DNA from: a bacterium
Lineage (GTDB): Bacteria; UBP18; UBA7526
Length of the DNA: 64,000 nucleotides
Direction of reading: 5' to 3'
NCBI GenBank assembly: GCA_030619985.1
Contig: JAUXAI010000001.1
Location: forward strand, 9,272-73,271
The notes under the pieces were generated by a model that was not told the DNA's origin, did not search any database, and saw nothing but the letters and a program-made list of their open reading frames with translations. Positions 51,375 to 61,212 of the stretch are shown piece by piece; position 1 is the first letter of the stretch; every line of letters begins with the position of its first letter. The position numbers and the translations under genes are program-made.

Positions 51375-52208
51375 ATGAGAAGGACATTAGGTTTTGTTTT
51401 AATCTTGGGTGTTTTAGTGGTAAGTGGATGCGTGAGAAGGGAACTTCTTGTTCTCCCTGAGGCACCAGAGGTAGGGGTGTTAAAGCCGGTTACCAGGCCA
51501 GGGACAGCGGCCTTCAGGGGAGGGGAAAAACTAACCTTCTTAGCTAAGTTCCGGTTTATTCCTGCTGGAGAGGTGACTATGGAAGTAAGGGAGATGAGAT
51601 ATAGGGGCCATGAGGTCTACAGTCCTTTAATAACTATGAAGGCGGCTAAGTTATTTTCTTTTTTCTGTCCAGCAGAGGTAAATATCAGGTCCTATCTCGA
51701 TGCCCGTACCTTAGATAGTCTACGTTATGAGGAGCATACCATAATGGGTCGCCATACCTATGAACGCTTGACGGTCTATGACCAGAGGAATCGATTGGCG
51801 ACGTATGATGCGCCAGTCTATGATAGAATGGGCAAGACAATCAGGATTTATAAGAAGAAGGTAAGGATTCCACCCCATACCCAGGATATGTTATCTGCCT
51901 TCTATTATATTCGAACCCAGGAATTAAAAGAGGGAAAGATTCTAACCATCAATGCCAATGAGCGACACAAGAATTATAGAGTGAAGATAAAGGTCTTGAG
52001 GAAAGAGAAGGTTACTGTTCCAGCAGGAACCTTCCTCACCTGGGTGATAGAGCCGATTTCCATACAGAGATTGGATAAAGAAAAAGAAGGGGAAAAAGGA
52101 ACAGGTCTTATCTATCTCAGCGCAGATGAGAGGAAGCTACCAGTCTTAATGAAAGCCAAGACAAAATTAGGCTCGGTTACTGTTCAACTAATAGACGTTA
52201 AACTTTAA
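51375..52208 (+). CDS. Outer-envelope lipoprotein, DUF3108-like
   Basis: 277 residues. Signal peptide with lipobox Val-Val-Ser-Gly-Cys (Cys19), so lipid-anchored. The mature part opens with FRGGEKLTFLAKFRFIPAGEVTMEV, the DUF3108 hallmark, and has YEEHTIMGRHTYERLTVYD and TVPAGTFLTWVIEP. DUF3108 proteins are periplasmic and of unknown biochemical role. Own promoter upstream; bounded on both sides by the ACGCGAAT arrays with a shared 35-bp word. Confidence 0.8.
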   Translation: MRRTLGFVLILGVLVVSGCVRRELLVLPEAPEVGVLKPVTRPGTAAFRGGEKLTFLAKFRFIPAGEVTMEVREMRYRGHEVYSPLITMKAAKLFSFFCPAEVNIRSYLDARTLDSLRYEEHTIMGRHTYERLTVYDQRNRLATYDAPVYDRMGKTIRIYKKKVRIPPHTQDMLSAFYYIRTQELKEGKILTINANERHKNYRVKIKVLRKEKVTVPAGTFLTWVIEPISIQRLDKEKEGEKGTGLIYLSADERKLPVLMKAKTKLGSVTVQLIDVKL

Positions 52209-52346
52209 CGCGAATAATCGCGAACTGCAAAGCAAAGAACGAAACAAAGTAAACAGGACGCGAATTAACGCGAATAAAAGAGGGACGCGAATAGACGCGA
52301 ACTGAAAAGCGAGGACGCAAGATAATCGGGACGCGAATCAACGCGA
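52207..52346. repeat. ACGCGAAT array between the lipoprotein and GxxExxY genes
   Basis: Begins on the lipoprotein stop codon. About eight ACGCGAAT/TCGCGAACT-like units with GAACGAAAC filler; contains the 35-bp word also found at 51084. A single inverted unit (ATTCGCGTTT) marks the end of the following gene at 52732-52741. Confidence 0.8.
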
Positions 52347-52742
52347 ATGAAAACAGAAACAAAAATATTATATAAGGAGTTAGCTTACCAAATAGTAGGA
52401 GCTTTTTACGAAGTATATAATACTCTGGGGCCAGGTTTTAAAGAGTCCATTTACCATAACGCTTTAGCCATTGAATTTACTTTACGGAAAATATCCTTTG
52501 AAACTAATAAGAGACTCACCATCAAGTATAAAAAGCAAAAGGTTGGAATTTATGAACCAGACTTCGTTATAGATAATAAGATTCTTGTTGAAATCAAAGC
52601 TGTTCCCAGGATGCCCAGAGTTTACGAAAAGCAGTTATATTACTATCTGAAGGGTACAGAATATAAATTGGGTTACTTAGTAAATTTTGGAGCTGATAAA
52701 TTAGAAATCAAGCGTAGAATCTACGAAAGGATTCGCGTTTGA
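52347..52742 (+). CDS. GxxExxY family protein
   Basis: 131 residues. The naming motif is present as Gly30-Phe-Lys-Glu33-Ser-Ile-Tyr36 after NTLGPG, with the later VGIYEPDFVIDNKILVEIKA that has the Glu/Asp...Glu-x-Lys look of PDDEXK nucleases. These proteins occur in many copies in environmental genomes and have no proven function. ATG 52347 follows directly on the repeat array, with no clear ribosome site; the last codons (Ile-Arg-Val) are coded by an inverted repeat unit. It is unrelated to its neighbours and looks like a repeat-borne orphan gene. Confidence 0.82.
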   Translation: MKTETKILYKELAYQIVGAFYEVYNTLGPGFKESIYHNALAIEFTLRKISFETNKRLTIKYKKQKVGIYEPDFVIDNKILVEIKAVPRMPRVYEKQLYYYLKGTEYKLGYLVNFGADKLEIKRRIYERIRV

Positions 52743-55781: not shown

Positions 55782-55783
55782 AG

Positions 55784-55918
55784 TTAACAAGGATACAAGT
55801 TAACAAGAAACTTATCAACTTATTTCTGAGTGGTAACGAAGAAACAAGGTTCTGCGAAGCAGGTTCTTATTAACTTGTCAACTTGTCAACTAATCAACTT
55901 GTCAACTTTTTAACTCAC
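55784..55918. repeat. Inverted AACTTGT array holding a 38-bp palindrome
   Basis: Left arm of GTTAACAAGGATACAAG words starts straight after the mutase stop; right arm of AACTTGTCAACT words ends near 55915. Between them (55834-55871) is a palindromic segment TTCTGCGAAGCAGGTTCTTA-like whose minus strand matches the first 40 bp of the insertion in the HEPN gene (974-1010). The arms match those at 2296 and 59064. Confidence 0.8.
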
Positions 55919-55936
55919 TGAGTAAGGAGAATTCGC

Positions 55937-57178
55937 ATGAGATACAAAGTGGCTCTACGCAATGAGACCAGGCACAGGCTGCGTACCAAGATAAAGAGGG
56001 CAGACATCGTGGTTGGTATTCCCTGTTACTATGATGAGGATACCATCGGCTATGTCATCCAGCAGGCAGCAGAAGGATTGGCCAAGTATTTCCCTAAGTA
56101 TAAGAAGGTCATCCTGGTCTCTGACGGTGGCTCCTTAGACGATACCAGGGAGATCATCATCGCTGCCCCAGTTCCCAAGGTAGTGGATAAGATGTTCTTC
56201 ATCTATAGGGGCCTTCCAGGAAAGGGGACCGCCTTCAGATCTGTCTTCGAAGCAAGCAAGATATTAGGAGCAAAGGTCGTTCTAACCCTGGATTCTGATT
56301 TAAGAAGCATTACTCCCCTCTGGATAAAGCTCATGGCCCATCCCGTCTTAAGCGGGAAGTATGATTATGTTACTCCTTACTATCTTCGCCATAAATACGA
56401 CGGAACGATATCGAATAACATCACCTATCCCTTAATCAGGGCCTTATATGGCCTAAGGATCAGACAGCCCATGGGAGGAGACTTCGCTCTCTCTGGAGAC
56501 TTAGCCAAGGCCTACCTCATAGAGGATGTCTGGATGGGGGTTGTGGCTCGCTTCGGTATTGATAGCTGGATGACTACTGAAGCCATAAATAAGGGATATA
56601 GGATATGTCAAGTAGCCCTGGGAACAAAGATTCACAATCCCAAGGAGCCTTCCCTGAAATTAGGTTCTATGTTTCGAGAAGTGGTGGGAACCTTATTCAG
56701 CCTAATGGAGAAGTATGAATATAATTGGATGCAGGTAAAGGGTTCCCAACCAGTAAAAACCTATGACCATCGCCAGATTGTGGAACCCGAAGCACTCTTA
56801 GTAGATGTAGAAGGGATGATCGGCCAGCTTGCCCATCACTACTCCGACTGTCATGACATCTGGAGGGAGATCATGCCTGAGGATAACTTTCGGGCGGTAA
56901 GGGAACTGGCCCATACCAAAGAGATAAGAAACTTTAAGTTCCCTCTCGACCTCTGGGCAAGGATTGTCTATGACTTTGCCGTTGCCTATCATCAGAAGGA
57001 AATCTCCCCAGATGATGTTTTGGACCTTTTTGCCCCCCTCTACTTTGCCAAGACCGGCTCCTTTGCTCAGGAGACCTTGAGGATGAGCAGTAAGGAGGCG
57101 GAGAGGGTAGTTGAGGCCCAAGCCAAGGCCTTTGAGAAAGAAAAACCCTATTTGATCGAGAGGTGGGAAGAGGTATGA
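55937..57178 (+). CDS. GT-A glycosyltransferase, mannosylglycerate-synthase-like
   Basis: 413 residues. VVGIPCYYDEDTIGYVIQQA, VSDGGSLDDT, GLPGKGTAFRSVFEA, LTLDSDLRSI (metal site DSD), RQPMGGDFALSG and ARFGIDSWMTTEAI, the last two recalling GT78 mannosylglycerate synthase. The C-terminal 130 residues are helical and soluble. It overlaps the GpgS-like gene by ATGA, so both probably act on a glycerate glycoside, this one perhaps adding a second sugar. AAGGAG upstream. Substrate is inference. Confidence 0.7.
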   Translation: MRYKVALRNETRHRLRTKIKRADIVVGIPCYYDEDTIGYVIQQAAEGLAKYFPKYKKVILVSDGGSLDDTREIIIAAPVPKVVDKMFFIYRGLPGKGTAFRSVFEASKILGAKVVLTLDSDLRSITPLWIKLMAHPVLSGKYDYVTPYYLRHKYDGTISNNITYPLIRALYGLRIRQPMGGDFALSGDLAKAYLIEDVWMGVVARFGIDSWMTTEAINKGYRICQVALGTKIHNPKEPSLKLGSMFREVVGTLFSLMEKYEYNWMQVKGSQPVKTYDHRQIVEPEALLVDVEGMIGQLAHHYSDCHDIWREIMPEDNFRAVRELAHTKEIRNFKFPLDLWARIVYDFAVAYHQKEISPDDVLDLFAPLYFAKTGSFAQETLRMSSKEAERVVEAQAKAFEKEKPYLIERWEEV

Positions 57179-58167
57179 GCAAGGTAGAAAAGTGGTTTAA
57201 GAACCGCACCTTCCATCACTCCCAGTTCTCTGACATCAAGGAACTGGTGAGATTAAAGAGGAAGAAAAACCTAACCATAAGCGTAGGCCTTCCCACCCTG
57301 AATGAGGCAGAGACCATTGCTACGGAGCTTATCGTGATCAAGAGTGAGCTCATGGATAAGCATCACTTAATAGATGAGTTAGCCATCATAGACTCTGGCT
57401 CAACAGATAAGACCAGAGAGATTGCAGCAAAGTATGGGGCAGATGTCTATTTGACAGACGATTATTTAAAAGAGGAAGGAATCTATTCTGGCAAAGGAGA
57501 GAACCTTTGGAAGAGTCTCTATCTCCTAAAAGGAGATATCATCCTATGGCTCGATGCCGACATTAAGAACATCCATCCCAAGTTTGTCTATGGGTTACTG
57601 GGTCCCCTTCTAACCAATAGTCGAATAGGTTATGTCAAGGCCTTCTATGAGAGACCAATAAAGTTAGAGACAGAGAAGACCCTGAGGGCTTCTGGAGGAG
57701 GGAGGGTGACAGCACTTATGCTTCGTCCTATCTTCAATCTTTTCTTTCCTGAACTTTCGGGACTTATTCAACCCTTAAGTGGAGAGTATGCCGGAAGAAG
57801 GGAAATACTAGAGAAAGTTCCCTTCTTTATCGGCTATGGGGTAGAGACAGGACTGTTAATCGACATCTATAAGAAGTTTGGTTTAAACTCCATTGCCCAG
57901 GTCGACCTGGATCAACGCATCCACCGGAATCATACCCTTCCCACATTATCTAAGATGGCCTTCACTATCCTGCAGGTGGCTCTAAACCGTGCTGGGGATC
58001 TGTGGAAACTGAAGATGTTAGAAGAATTAAATCCCAGCATGAGGCTCATTAAAAGGAAGGGGAATAGGTATTCCTTTGAGATCTTTGAGAGGAAGGTCGT
58101 GGAGCGCCCCCCCATGATTACTGTGAAAGCCTATCGGGAGAAAAGGAAGAAGCAAAAGAGATCCTAA
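57175..58167 (+). CDS. gpgS: Glucosyl-3-phosphoglycerate synthase (GT81)
   Basis: 330 residues from ATG 57175. LTISVGLPTLNEAETIATEL, DSGSTDKT, LWLDADIKNIHPKFVYGLLGPLL (metal site DAD), VKAFYERP, GGGRVTALMLRPIFNLFFPELSGLIQPLSGEYAGRRE (broken here into its recognisable parts: GGGRVT, NLFFPE, QPLSGEYAGRR) and GYGVETGLLIDI. These are the GpgS signatures. It makes glucosyl-3-phosphoglycerate from a nucleotide-glucose and 3-phosphoglycerate, precursor of the compatible solute glucosylglycerate. Its stop is followed by the CCCCGCACC terminator. Confidence 0.88.
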   Translation: MSKVEKWFKNRTFHHSQFSDIKELVRLKRKKNLTISVGLPTLNEAETIATELIVIKSELMDKHHLIDELAIIDSGSTDKTREIAAKYGADVYLTDDYLKEEGIYSGKGENLWKSLYLLKGDIILWLDADIKNIHPKFVYGLLGPLLTNSRIGYVKAFYERPIKLETEKTLRASGGGRVTALMLRPIFNLFFPELSGLIQPLSGEYAGRREILEKVPFFIGYGVETGLLIDIYKKFGLNSIAQVDLDQRIHRNHTLPTLSKMAFTILQVALNRAGDLWKLKMLEELNPSMRLIKRKGNRYSFEIFERKVVERPPMITVKAYREKRKKQKRS

Positions 58168-58177
58168 TAAAAAAGAA

Positions 58178-58240
58178 CCCCGCACCTTTTATCTATTCAA
58201 AGTAGCAACCTAAAGAAATGAATATTAAAAAGGTGCGGGG
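58178..58240. terminator. CCCCGCACCTTTT / AAAAGGTGCGGGG bidirectional terminator, second copy
   Basis: 13-bp perfect stem (58178-58190 with 58228-58240), 37-nt loop, A run before and CTTTTCT after, so it can serve the + strand gpgS and the convergent - strand small gene. Stem and part of the loop match 5695-5743. Confidence 0.8.
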
Positions 58241-58262
58241 CTTTTCTCTATCTAAATTCTGA

Positions 58263-58373
58263 TTATCTTCTTTTCTTCTTTCCCTTCCTTGCCTTTTTCT
58301 TCTTTCTCCTTACAACCTTCTTTCTTTTCACAACCTTCTTTTTCCTCTTCGCCTTCTTCTTTCTTTTCGCCAC
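58263..58373 (-). CDS. Tiny Lys/Arg-rich basic protein (histone H1-like)
   Basis: 36 residues, 27 of them Lys or Arg, from GTG at 58373 to TAA at 58265-58263: opens Met-Ala-Lys-Arg-Lys-Lys-Lys-Ala and has two Val-Val pairs (14-15, 20-21). AGGAGGG lies 5 bp upstream and a near-consensus promoter before that, which argues it is a real gene and not low-complexity sequence. Such proteins usually bind nucleic acid (H1/Hc1-like, or a ribosome-associated tail). It is the only gene called on this strand. Its transcript would end at the shared terminator. Confidence 0.75.
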   Translation of the reverse strand: MAKRKKKAKRKKKVVKRKKVVRRKKKKARKGKKKRR

Positions 58374-58403
58374 TTTTTCCCTCCTCTCCTTAAATTTAGT
58401 TTA

Positions 58404-58433
58404 ATAATATCACACTAAATCTCCATTTGTCAA
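58404..58433 (-). promoter_or_regulatory. Strong sigma70 promoter for the basic protein gene
   Basis: On the - strand: TTGACA (58433-58428), 18-bp spacer, TATTAT (58409-58404). The ribosome site AGGAGGG follows at 58385-58379. Confidence 0.75.
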
Positions 58434-58490
58434 GCCTTTTTTTGATTTTTATTGAATTTATTGATAGAATGGAAAAGGAAAGAGAATGAG

Positions 58491-59066
58491 ATGACCAAGA
58501 TCATCCTGGTGCGCCATGGGGAGACGGCCTGGACTCCAGTAAATAGGATTCAAGGTTGGCTGGATATAGAGTTAAATGAGCGAGGGCTAAGACAGGCAAA
58601 AAGAATTGCAAGAGAATTAAAGAGAAAGAAGATAGACGCCATCTATTCTAGTGAACTCTCTCGGGCTTATGAGACAGCAAAGATTATTGCCAAACCACAT
58701 AAATTAAGAGTAAAGAAGGATATTAATCTCAATGAGCTTAACCAGGGAAAGTGGCAAGGGCTTCTGGTAAAAGAGGCCAGAAGAAAGTATAAGGAACTTT
58801 ACCGAAGATGGGAAGAAGAACCCTTAAGCGTCAGGCCTCCTGGAGGGGAGAGCATCCTGGACCTTTACGAAAGGGCAATCCATATTTTAAGAGAGATTAC
58901 CAAGAAATATCCCAAAGGGAAGGTAGTCATCGTGGGACATAAGGTGATAAATACGGTATTAAAATGCTATTTGTTGGGAATAAATCTCTCTAATGTCTGG
59001 AAACTACTGCCTAAGGAAGCAAGCTGGGAGGAAATCAAAATTCCCCAATCAAGAGTCAGAAAATGA
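58491..59066 (+). CDS. Histidine phosphatase family protein, possible glucosyl-3-phosphoglycerate phosphatase
   Basis: 191 residues from ATG 58491, AAGGA upstream; a longer TTG frame from 58452 is less likely. LVRHGETAW with the catalytic His, SELSRAYETA, GESILDLYERA and VGHKVINT with the second His: complete phosphoglycerate-mutase-like phosphatase. Mycobacterial GpgP belongs to this superfamily, and the gene follows gpgS, so dephosphorylation of glucosyl-3-phosphoglycerate is a reasonable guess; alpha-ribazole phosphatase and other roles are alternatives. Confidence 0.8.
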   Translation: MTKIILVRHGETAWTPVNRIQGWLDIELNERGLRQAKRIARELKRKKIDAIYSSELSRAYETAKIIAKPHKLRVKKDINLNELNQGKWQGLLVKEARRKYKELYRRWEEEPLSVRPPGGESILDLYERAIHILREITKKYPKGKVVIVGHKVINTVLKCYLLGINLSNVWKLLPKEASWEEIKIPQSRVRK

Positions 59067-59108
59067 GTTAACAAGTATACAAGTTAACAAGGATACAAGT
59101 TGACAAGG
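59064..59108. repeat. Left repeat arm (GTTAACAAG / GATACAAG) before a four-helix-bundle gene
   Basis: Overlaps the phosphatase stop codon and consists of GTTAACAAGTATACAA, GTTAACAAGGATACAA and GTTGACAAGG. Its inverted partner is at 59492-59530. Confidence 0.85.
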
Positions 59109-59118
59109 AAGGTGGAAG

Positions 59119-59493
59119 ATGGAAAGAGGTTTTGAAGGTTTAAAGGTTTGGCAATTGGGAAGGAAATTCCGCAAAAAGATTTATGAGATAAGTAGAAAGT
59201 TCCCAAAGGAAGAGATATATTGCCTAGTTCAGCAAATTCGTAAAGCAGCAATATCCATAACTGCCAATATCACAGAAGGTCATGGTAGGTATCATTATCA
59301 GGAAAATATTCAGTTTTGTCGGGTTTCAAGAGGCTCGATAAATGAAGTCTTAGATCATCTATATACTGCTATAGACGAAAAATATATTGTTGAAAAAGAG
59401 TTCCAGCAATTATACTCTCAGGGCAGAGAAGTAGAAAAAGTGCTCAACGGTTACATCGGTTACCTTCACAAAAGACTCAGCGAGAAAAGTTAA
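59119..59493 (+). CDS. Four-helix-bundle protein (S23 / rRNA intervening-sequence type)
   Basis: 124 residues, all-helical. Typical pattern: FEGLKVWQLGRKFRKKIYEIS, then FPKEEIYCLVQQIRKAAISITANITEGHGR and the C-terminal helix with EVEKVLNGYIGYLHKRL. The family was first found inside 23S rRNA intervening sequences; an Avd-like relative binds RNA in retroelements. Here no rRNA or reverse transcriptase lies nearby; the gene is bounded by inverted repeat arms that are also found elsewhere without it. GGAAGGTGGAAG precedes the start. Function unknown. Confidence 0.87.
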   Translation: MERGFEGLKVWQLGRKFRKKIYEISRKFPKEEIYCLVQQIRKAAISITANITEGHGRYHYQENIQFCRVSRGSINEVLDHLYTAIDEKYIVEKEFQQLYSQGREVEKVLNGYIGYLHKRLSEKS

Positions 59494-59530
59494 ACTTGTC
59501 AACTAATCAACTTGTTAACTTATCAACTAT
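59492..59530. repeat. Right repeat arm (AACTTGTCAACT) after the four-helix-bundle gene
   Basis: Begins on the stop codon of the gene; AACTTGTCAACTAATCAACTT words, inverted relative to 59064-59108 and the same as the right arms at 2341 and 55870. Confidence 0.85.
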
Positions 59531-59546
59531 CTGAAAGGAGTTTATC

Positions 59547-60767
59547 ATGTCTAAACCAAGAATTGCTATCGTTCATTATTCCTCTCCTCCAGTAATCGGA
59601 GGGGTGGAGTTCATCTTGGAGGCTCATGCCAGAGAGATGCTCAAGCATGGCTATAAGGTGAAGGTTGTTGCAGGGAGAGGGGAGAAATTTCATAAGAAGA
59701 TCCCGATTGTTATTATTCCCGAGGCGGATTCTCTCTCAAAGACGAATAAGAGAATAGATGCGGAACTTGAGAAGAATCTTGTGAGTGCTAAATTTCATCA
59801 ATTAACAGATAGAATCTACGGGAAACTAACTCGAGAGTTTAAAAATGTCGATCTTGTCATCATCCATAATGTCCTGACCATGCACTTCAACCTCCCCCTT
59901 ACTGCTGCTTTAGAGAGATATATTAGAGAACATAAGAAGAAAAAGTACATCGCCTGGTGCCACGATGCCACCTTCAAGGACCCGGTCTATAAGAAGAAGG
60001 CCAAGAATAAATACCCCTGGAATGTGATCTCCAAGCCCATTCCAAAAGTAAGGTATGTTGCCATCTCTTGTGAGCGCCAGAAGCAGCTCTCTCACCTCTT
60101 CCGAGTCAATCCCAAGAAGATAACCGTGGTTCCTGACGGAATCGATCATAAAAGCTTCTTAGATTTAAATGGGGATGCCCTGGAAGTCTTCAAGAGGTTT
60201 AATCTCTTTAATCAGGATCTGGTTATGCTTCTGCCCACCAGGATTGTGAAAAGAAAAAATCTGGAACTGGCAATAAAGATCACTAAGGAATTGAATAAGA
60301 TACTCAAGGCTGTTTTAATTATTACTGGGCCTCCTGATCCCCATAATATCGACTCTATGAGGTATTATCGCTCTCTGAAAGACTTAAGGAATAAATCCCG
60401 GATGAAGAGGAAGGTCATCTTTCTCTATGAGGAGGGAATAAAGGTAGGATATTCTATGCTGAGGAGCCTCTATCTATTATGTGATATGCTCCTATTTCCC
60501 AGTGCCCAGGAAGGCTTCGGCATCCCCCTATTGGAATCTGGATTGGTTAACCTTCCCATCGCTTGTGCCAACATCCCTCCCTTGAAGGAAGTGGGAGAGA
60601 AAGACGTTCACTATCTTGACTTAAAGAAGAACCCCAGAGAACTTGCCTCAGGGATAATTAAGTATTACCAAAGACAGCCCACTATCCCTATGTTCAAGAA
60701 GGTATTGAGGAACTATACCTGGGAATCCATCTTCACGCAAAAGATAGAACCATTGTTAAAGGGGTGA
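59547..60767 (+). CDS. GT-B glycosyltransferase, family 4
   Basis: 406 residues. RIAIVHYSSPPVIGGVEFILEAHAREM at the acceptor side (GGVE turn), VPDGIDHKSFLDL, LLPTRIVKRKNLELAIKI, and FPSAQEGFGIPLLESGLVNLPIA for the donor-binding Glu-x7-Glu (Glu-Gly-Phe-Gly...Glu-Ser). GAAAGGAG upstream. It may extend the glucosylglycerate product (for example with mannose from GDP-mannose) or act on a polysaccharide; context allows both. Its stop lies in the next repeat arm. Confidence 0.85.
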   Translation: MSKPRIAIVHYSSPPVIGGVEFILEAHAREMLKHGYKVKVVAGRGEKFHKKIPIVIIPEADSLSKTNKRIDAELEKNLVSAKFHQLTDRIYGKLTREFKNVDLVIIHNVLTMHFNLPLTAALERYIREHKKKKYIAWCHDATFKDPVYKKKAKNKYPWNVISKPIPKVRYVAISCERQKQLSHLFRVNPKKITVVPDGIDHKSFLDLNGDALEVFKRFNLFNQDLVMLLPTRIVKRKNLELAIKITKELNKILKAVLIITGPPDPHNIDSMRYYRSLKDLRNKSRMKRKVIFLYEEGIKVGYSMLRSLYLLCDMLLFPSAQEGFGIPLLESGLVNLPIACANIPPLKEVGEKDVHYLDLKKNPRELASGIIKYYQRQPTIPMFKKVLRNYTWESIFTQKIEPLLKG

Positions 60768-60799
60768 CAGGGGTGGCAAGGGTGACAGGGGTAACAGGG
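60764..60799. repeat. Left repeat arm (GGGGTGACAGG) before a second four-helix-bundle gene
   Basis: GGGGTGACA, GGGGTGGCAA, GGGTGACA, GGGGTAACA units, overlapping the stop of the glycosyltransferase. Inverted partner at 61169-61212. Confidence 0.8.
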
Positions 60800-61168
60800 A
60801 TGAAAAGTAAAAGAGAGCCCGGCTATAAGAGATTAATTGTCTGGCAGAATACCTATAAACTGCGCAAATTAATCTATAAGATAACCGCTCACTTCCCAAG
60901 AAGTGAAATGCGACGGGTCAGTCATATGAGAGATAGTGCCCGCTCAGCAAAGCAGAATATCCAAGAGGGTTATAAGCGTGCCTCTCGTGGAATATATATT
61001 CACTTTTTAACCATTTCTCAGGGCTCTTTAGGAGAATTGAAGGGCGATGTAGAAGATTCTTTTGAAGATGGATTGATGAGTAAGGAAGAATATGAAGAAG
61101 TAGATGCTTTAATCTGCAAAACCGATTATTTATTTACTCGCCTGATCAATTCATTAAGGAAGAAATAA
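60800..61168 (+). CDS. Four-helix-bundle protein, second copy
   Basis: 122 residues from ATG 60800, just past the repeat; a GTG at 60764 would translate the array and is less likely. YKRLIVWQNTYKLRKLIYKITAHFP, MRDSARSAKQNIQEGYKR, and helix 4 DALICKTDYLFTRLINSLRKK follow the same plan as the gene at 59119 but with low sequence similarity, so they are old paralogues. It is also enclosed by inverted arms, of different sequence. Function unknown; RNA binding is the family expectation. Confidence 0.82.
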   Translation: MKSKREPGYKRLIVWQNTYKLRKLIYKITAHFPRSEMRRVSHMRDSARSAKQNIQEGYKRASRGIYIHFLTISQGSLGELKGDVEDSFEDGLMSKEEYEEVDALICKTDYLFTRLINSLRKK

Positions 61169-61212
61169 ACCCTTGTACCCCTTATATCCCTTGTTCCCCC
61201 CGTAACCCCTGT
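61169..61212. repeat. Right repeat arm (CCCTTGTTCCCC / GTAACCCCTG)
   Basis: Begins just after the stop codon of the gene: ACCCTTGTACCCC, TTATATCCCTTGTTCCCC, GTAACCCCTG. Inverted relative to 60764-60799. The lepA start follows 12 bp later. Confidence 0.8.

Follow-up and report, generated by a model that had tools for sequence, protein, structure and literature searches.

The window analysed here is a 64,000-nucleotide stretch of contig C42 from a metagenome-assembled genome (MAG; G000) of 1.25 Mb, distributed over 91 contigs and 84% complete. Three of its loci, at positions 2296-2410, 55784-55918 and 59064-59530, are bordered by the same family of repeat arms and hold three different contents: almost nothing at 2296, a palindrome at 55784, and at the third locus a complete gene, P0001 (59119-59493), coding for a four-helix bundle of the S23 family. 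An earlier inspection made without database searches (the sequence-only reading) had described these loci and contents in the same terms and likened them to a cassette or non-autonomous element, a proposal that the genome comparisons presented below support. It had also assigned single shared words to the arms. The loci do have words in common, but each arm is an array of a degenerate 8-mer, the two arrays facing inward (AGTTAACA/AGGATACA in the 5′ arm, with a complementary 3′ arm), and at 2296 the words are of the same family with one change each (left word GTTGACAAGGATACAAG; right word ending with AACTTGTCAACTAATA). We name these the AACTTGT arms; their 5′-side units are GTTAACAA/GGATACAA/GTATACAA and their 3′-side units AACTTGTC/AACTTATT/AACTAATC.

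All features are given on the forward strand. The S23 cassette consists of a 5′ arm at 59062-59107 (GTTAACAA GTATACAA GTTAACAA GGATACAA GTTGACAA), the P0001 gene (124 amino acids), and a 3′ arm at 59493-59532 (AACTTGTC AACTAATC AACTTGTT AACTTATC). The arm-only element at 55784 has a 5′ arm (55783-55808), an interior with a short 3′-type array and the palindrome GAAGAAACAAGGTTCTGCGAAGCAGGTTCTT (55809-55871), and a 3′ arm of six 8-mers (55872-55919; RNA fold z -2.40). At 2296 the 5′ arm GAATACAAGTTGACAAGGATACAAGAATACG (2300-2332; RNA fold z -3.40) is followed, with almost no loop, by a 3′ arm of nine 8-mers (2339-2410). RNA folds predicted for the arms are more stable than those of shuffled sequences. 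The palindrome is an independent dispersed repeat, for which many separate matches were obtained in the comparison with relatives. It lies at 55825-55871 of the window, has copies in G001, G002, G004 and G005, and is often, not always, found within these arms; a second dispersed repeat of that kind is CTCCGCCGAAGGCGGATC.

The arm pattern AACTTGTYAACT, with at most one mismatch, was matched 15 times in the window, where 0.5 matches were expected. This number was not attained in any of 100 shuffles, and all 15 matches fall within the three loci. Over the whole genome a 20-mer pattern with at most two mismatches gave 146 matches, compared to three for the reversed control. Among the 41 genomes searched (all compared genomes are draft MAGs; those of the G000 family are 53-93% complete), the arm pattern at one mismatch or less is confined to the genus of G000 and a single sister genus. 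AACTTGT arms occur at about 50 places of the G000 genome, mostly intergenic. In the stretches examined, 46 of 50 8-mer clusters lie outside open reading frames (ORFs) of at least 100 amino acids, with 33 in co-directional, two in convergent and four in divergent gaps. Adjacent arm pairs face inward in 20/21 cases in G000, 13/13 in G002 and 7/7 in G001 (the latter two being congeners), so the random orientation that would have spoken against the sequence-only reading is not found. The arms are thus dispersed inverted hairpins outside genes, of the type of the repetitive extragenic palindromic doublets forming hairpins (REPINs).

P0001 matches the S23 profiles PF05635 (E 2.8e-34, 117.9 bits; cut-off 33.8) and TIGR02436 (110 bits; cut-off 24). 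Its AlphaFold (AF2) model has a predicted local distance difference test (pLDDT) score of 96.9 and is matched by Foldseek to the solved S23 structures 2GSC, with a template-modelling (TM) score of 0.85-0.97, and 2RLD. The next-best fold match is Avd from diversity-generating retroelements (DGRs; complex entry 8UB7), with a TM score of ~0.76 and ~9% identity; a weak profile match to bAvd (E 5e-5) was also obtained. The S23/IVP family is widespread and has solved structures, while to our knowledge no function is known for it. Previously its gene was known chiefly as part of inserts in 23S ribosomal RNA (rRNA). As in such intervening sequences (IVSs), P0001 is an S23 ORF in a loop bordered by complementary sequences, but its cassette has a histidine phosphatase gene on one side and a glycosyltransferase gene on the other and is not inside an rRNA gene; an Rfam scan of the window gave no match.

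G000 carries ten S23 genes, among which P0001 is the only one within AACTTGT arms. Nearly all of the other nine are enclosed by inverted arrays too, made of different short words that vary by locus, and the same holds in relatives; examples of arm pairs from G000 and its relatives are GTCATTA GTCGATA / GACTATT GACTTTT, AGGGGTGAC / CCCTTGTAC and GGAGTAAC / CGATACCC. One of these genes is in the window itself, 1.3 kb downstream of P0001 (60764-61168; PF05635 E 2.5e-20, TIGR02436). It is bracketed by a 5′ arm of 9-mers (AGGGGTGAC/AGGGGTGGC; 60759-60806) and a 3′ arm of CCCTTGTAC words (61170-61212), and its nearest relative in the set is the S23 gene that G002 carries at the site of P0001.

S23 genes between inverted word arrays are also found in unrelated genomes. 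One scan of GTDB genomes provided a sample of 77 loci which, being drawn from the best 80 hits to one query, is biased to one part of the S23 family; by record titles it covers Bacteroidota, Patescibacteria, Planctomycetota, Omnitrophota, Acidobacteria, Clostridia, Synergistaceae, Proteobacteria and others. The 200-bp flanks on the upstream and downstream sides of a gene had a median complementarity score of 35 at the S23 loci and of 18 at 254 control ORFs from the same loci (Mann-Whitney p 2e-31). Sixty of the 77 loci score above the control 95th percentile, and 60 above all 100 of their own shuffles. A further genome set that includes the relatives of G000, scored slightly more loosely, has 29 of 33 S23 loci at 28 or more. 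The best period of the arms beside S23 is 7 in 44 and 8 in 14 of 60, as in tandem heptamers of the TAACTGA type or of the cyanobacterial short tandemly repeated repetitive (STRR) type, the latter being tandem intergenic heptamers. Among 46 arms with clear periodicity, 42 have the dinucleotide AG recurring at one word phase (the next dinucleotide does so in 17). With the period of 7 or 8, this defines a word that is typically AG followed by five or six locus-specific bases. S23 is co-directional with its upstream gene in 68/73 and with its downstream gene in 60/73 cases. A detector of AG-anchored inverted arrays found eight elements in 652 kb of S23-bearing genomes and none in 570 kb of S23-free genomes; without the window the count is five to none (p ~0.03), which is suggestive only.

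Some S23 copies carry in-frame stops, as expected for decaying element genes (G002:C35:26782-27084 (L151), L260:3001-3306, L052 and L066). The 19 PF05635 matches of G013 (e.g., C7:104028-104554, L056) mostly form pairs in which two short stretches diverge from each other at a distance of a few hundred bases, an arrangement unlike the cassettes. S23 genes were also found in 28 plasmid records, mostly of Nostoc, Calothrix and other cyanobacteria, a group known for heptamer repeats. A tblastn search of phages gave no S23.

Arm words follow the S23 lineage. Protein similarity and arm-word similarity are correlated over 78 loci (Mantel r 0.20, p 2e-4), a signal that derives from pairs with more than 60% protein identity; a few of the closest pairs have common flanks too. 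AGTGGCC words are common to S23 genes of MAGs labelled Synergistaceae, Victivallales, Chlorobiota and Akkermansia, and AGCGTAT words to those of Omnitrophota and Endomicrobiales. In 18 Bacteroidota loci S23 occupies one place between flavoprotein and iron-sulfur genes, which we take from their sequences to be those of the sdh/frd operon (succinate dehydrogenase/fumarate reductase). The words of these loci have changed between species, while the 5′ and 3′ arms of one locus still match each other (mean score 38.7, against 23.8 for swapped arms; permutation p 5e-5, in a test that ignores relatedness and in which the own partner is best in only 5/18). This operon (L237:937-4181 and 17 further loci among L198-L275, from Bacteroidales to Flavobacteriales) is an unusually stable home for such an element.

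Arms and gene also move as a unit. One 450-bp S23 cassette is found on contigs C9 and C69 of G000, 91% identical and with unrelated flanks, and a third copy is on contig C76 of G001. Homology between the copies stops at the AT-rich arms. The same sequence with defined ends is thus present at three non-orthologous sites, as is characteristic of a mobile element. In G002 the C69 site holds an arm-only element with other words, while the C9 site has the same CACGGAT outer arm and next to it a gene of the GxxExxY family (PF13366/TIGR04256; PD-(D/E)XK superfamily) in place of S23. PF13366 is present in all ten tested genomes with at least four S23 profile matches and in G001, which has two; it was found in none of the other ten tested genomes (zero to two S23 matches). 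Since six of the positive genomes are of one family, the comparison of five further families (G006, G021, G023, G025 and G034) with the ten genomes without PF13366 is safer (p ~3e-4). Of 24 GxxExxY genes tested, half are flanked by sequences whose complementarity exceeds that of their own shuffles. GxxExxY is a candidate nuclease by its family only, and is absent from some genomes with one or two S23 genes. The window has its own GxxExxY gene at 52347-52742 (PF13366 E 6e-37; TIGR04256 E 6e-38). Repeated GACGCGAATTAACGCGAAT words lie upstream (52208-52352), and a single 3′ counter-word GGATTCGCGTTT (52729-52740) is what is left of a mostly lost arm. With ACGCGAATTAACGCGAAT words preceding the gene and the single counter-word downstream, the segment 52208-52742 is apparently a decayed cassette of this second kind.

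Orthologous sites hold different elements, nested layers, or none, and not the constant content that would have counted against the sequence-only reading. The P0001 site (59064-59530) was compared in four related genomes with flanks 84-92% identical and has a different state in each: P0001 in 8-mer arms in G000, in G002 a different S23, interrupted by an in-frame stop, between GGTTACTAG arms, a third S23 in GTTAACCAGTGAGCCA arms in G005, and no element in G001, where the two flanking genes overlap at ATGTCTAA. The three S23 genes are each nearest to an S23 located elsewhere (40, 58 and 66% identity), not to each other. The empty G001 state may be a loss, gain and loss being indistinguishable there. 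The site at 55784 has other words in G002 and G004 and is nearly empty in G003, whereas at 2296 the outer arms are kept in G002 with an extra inverted layer inside. About 20 sites were compared with G002 or G001 and sorted by eye on printed sequences. A good part has the same element with changes in the number of units (sites 23, 37 and 44 among them), several have the same outer arms and a different interior (nesting, seen at sites 4, 16, 17, 19 and 2296), and the rest are wholly different; site 49 has different words although both flanks are 98% identical.

The element that emerges from these comparisons is a pair of inward-facing complementary arms made of tandem words of 7 to 9 bases, the typical 5′-arm word being AG with five or six variable bases. 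It mostly occupies the gap from one gene's stop codon to the start of the following gene, the two genes usually being co-directional. In its complete form the loop holds an S23 gene (PF05635) that runs the same way as its neighbours, and many copies have no gene. Arms and gene are found as a unit at unrelated sites, word sets follow S23 lineages from phylum to phylum, and shared outer arms can enclose different inner layers. The sequence-only reading had understated this picture: arm words too vary from site to site and from genome to genome, the four-helix-bundle gene lies between such arms at most tested loci across phyla, and GxxExxY occupies the same kind of site as a second cargo. We conclude, with a probability of roughly 0.7, that the three loci represent one family of mobile hairpin elements, which resembles rRNA IVSs but resides outside rRNA, has S23 as its own protein, and gives rise to arm-only derivatives comparable to REPINs or to miniature inverted-repeat transposable elements (MITEs).

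Movement and the linkage of arms to gene come from comparison of genomes; the biochemistry that we infer from it would be as follows. S23 proteins form pentamers, as found for X. campestris S23p (PMC4990558). Such a pentamer would bind the hairpin formed by the arms of its own element, whether of RNA or of single-stranded DNA, and binding would promote copying of the hairpin to new places, either loops or gaps between genes. It would also act in trans on arm-only copies that have the same words, which would make P0001 the autonomous member for the ~50 AACTTGT places, 2296 and 55784 included. Transcribed into mRNA, the arms may pair to a duplex of the RNase III type, as those of known rRNA IVSs do, which would limit the harm done to the host operon. 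The inner layers found in loops of shared outer arms agree with the replacement of the loops of helices 9, 25 and 45 by rRNA IVSs (PMC4990558).

Several points weigh against this interpretation. S23 has no nuclease, polymerase or ligase, so that something else must move the DNA. Two candidates were rejected: reverse transcriptase (RT; PF00078) is absent from G000-G006, G021 and G023, which have 2 to 10 S23 matches each (family genomes 53-93% complete), and the Y1 transposase of the REP-associated tyrosine transposase (RAYT) type (PF01797) is absent from G000-G005, of the same completeness; both are unlikely mobilisers in the G000 family. Since nine of the ten S23 genes of G000 lack AACTTGT words, word identity is the only tie between P0001 and the copies it would serve. 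Selection for RNA pairing, gauged by the asymmetry of G-U against A-C mismatches, was not detectable: the counts were 68:48 at 60 loci (p 0.08) and 155 G-U in sense to 144 in antisense at 95 loci (p 0.56), which gives no verdict on an RNA or a DNA step. Gaps with arms in either of the two genomes compared are only weakly less conserved than those without (median identity 0.57 versus 0.72; p 0.05). No target-site duplication could be defined, and the compared genomes contain no clean empty/occupied pair of near-identical strains. The retention of S23 at sdh/frd in 18 Bacteroidota loci implies that residence can be very long.

That long retention, between sdhA and sdhB, also fits an alternative in which the arms are host regulatory or processing hairpins under selection (attenuators, mRNA stabilisers or RNase III sites), with S23 as a resident RNA-binding partner and not a mobility factor. 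The position between a stop codon and the next gene of a co-directional pair, the concerted change of the two arms and the stability of their predicted folds are in line with it. We consider it unlikely, because orthologous sites hold different elements or none, because one S23 cassette is found with its own arms at several unrelated sites, and because it is the S23 lineage that the words follow from phylum to phylum, and not the host gene. A further alternative, that replication slippage and template switching at hairpins gave rise to the arms as by-products and that S23 is merely tolerated there, is quite improbable. Slippage would produce the changes in unit number at sites 23, 37 and 44, and copying between arms would account for their concerted change, but the AG phase common to several phyla, the enrichment at S23, the linkage of words to lineage and the moved cassette would all be left unexplained.

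Homology of Avd with PF05635 has been noted (PMC10053308), and Avd is part of the RNA-protein complex of DGRs (8UB7). The fold match of P0001 to Avd and the weak bAvd profile match would suit a retroelement in which S23 acts like Avd with a host RT; with no RT found in G000-G006, G021 and G023, however, we regard this as very improbable. We give hardly any credence to a REPIN-RAYT or other known MITE system with a conventional transposase, which follows the same logic of dispersed intergenic hairpins, a protein gene flanked by its own repeat class and protein-repeat co-divergence (PMC3116915), but in which the enclosed gene would be a transposase, not a four-helix bundle without nuclease, and the repeats would not be arrays of 7-9-mers, the lack of Y1 in G000-G005 being a further objection.

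Mobile hairpins with S23 as their protein can be compared to the IVSs carrying an S23p ORF known in Leptospira and Coxiella, the Coxiella IVS being cut from the transcript by RNase III (PMC4990558). Both are sporadically distributed, and in both a member of this protein family is encoded in a loop with complementary borders. The cassettes differ by their location between protein genes, their tandem 7-9-mer arms, their many arm-only copies and their S23-lineage-specific words; RNase III processing, known for the IVS, is a putative feature of the cassettes. Small mobile repeats inserted in heptamer stems are also found in Nostoc (short dispersed repeat SDR5 and the P6b heptamers of the tRNA-Leu intron), for which we know of no protein gene. 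Intergenic tandem TAACTGA heptamers upstream of genes were described in Beggiatoaceae and cyanobacteria, with their origin left open (PMC4679880). On the opposite strand they read as an AGTTATC unit, which fits the AG word grammar. The likeness comes from this grammar; in their description they are direct repeats and S23 is not mentioned (PMC4679880). No prior description of S23 hairpin cassettes, or of a link between S23 and heptamers, was found in the open-access literature, most subscription journals being outside the scope of the search.

A wider proposal, which we put forward tentatively and consider somewhat doubtful as a whole, is that mobile hairpins free of transposase and RT span phyla: a word-specific pentamer would read paired arms of AG-plus-variable words and cause copies to be inserted in the loops of hairpins. 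rRNA IVSs and the heptamers of cyanobacteria and Beggiatoaceae would be special cases, and GxxExxY cassettes a companion class sharing sites. The proposal raises the question of how an element is copied without a recognisable transposase or RT. The tie between S23 and heptamers gives both a testable role, as a word-specific nucleic-acid-binding protein and its cognate hairpin. rRNA IVSs would be recast as one landing site of a general element, and a source of intergenic turnover in some genomes would be explained.

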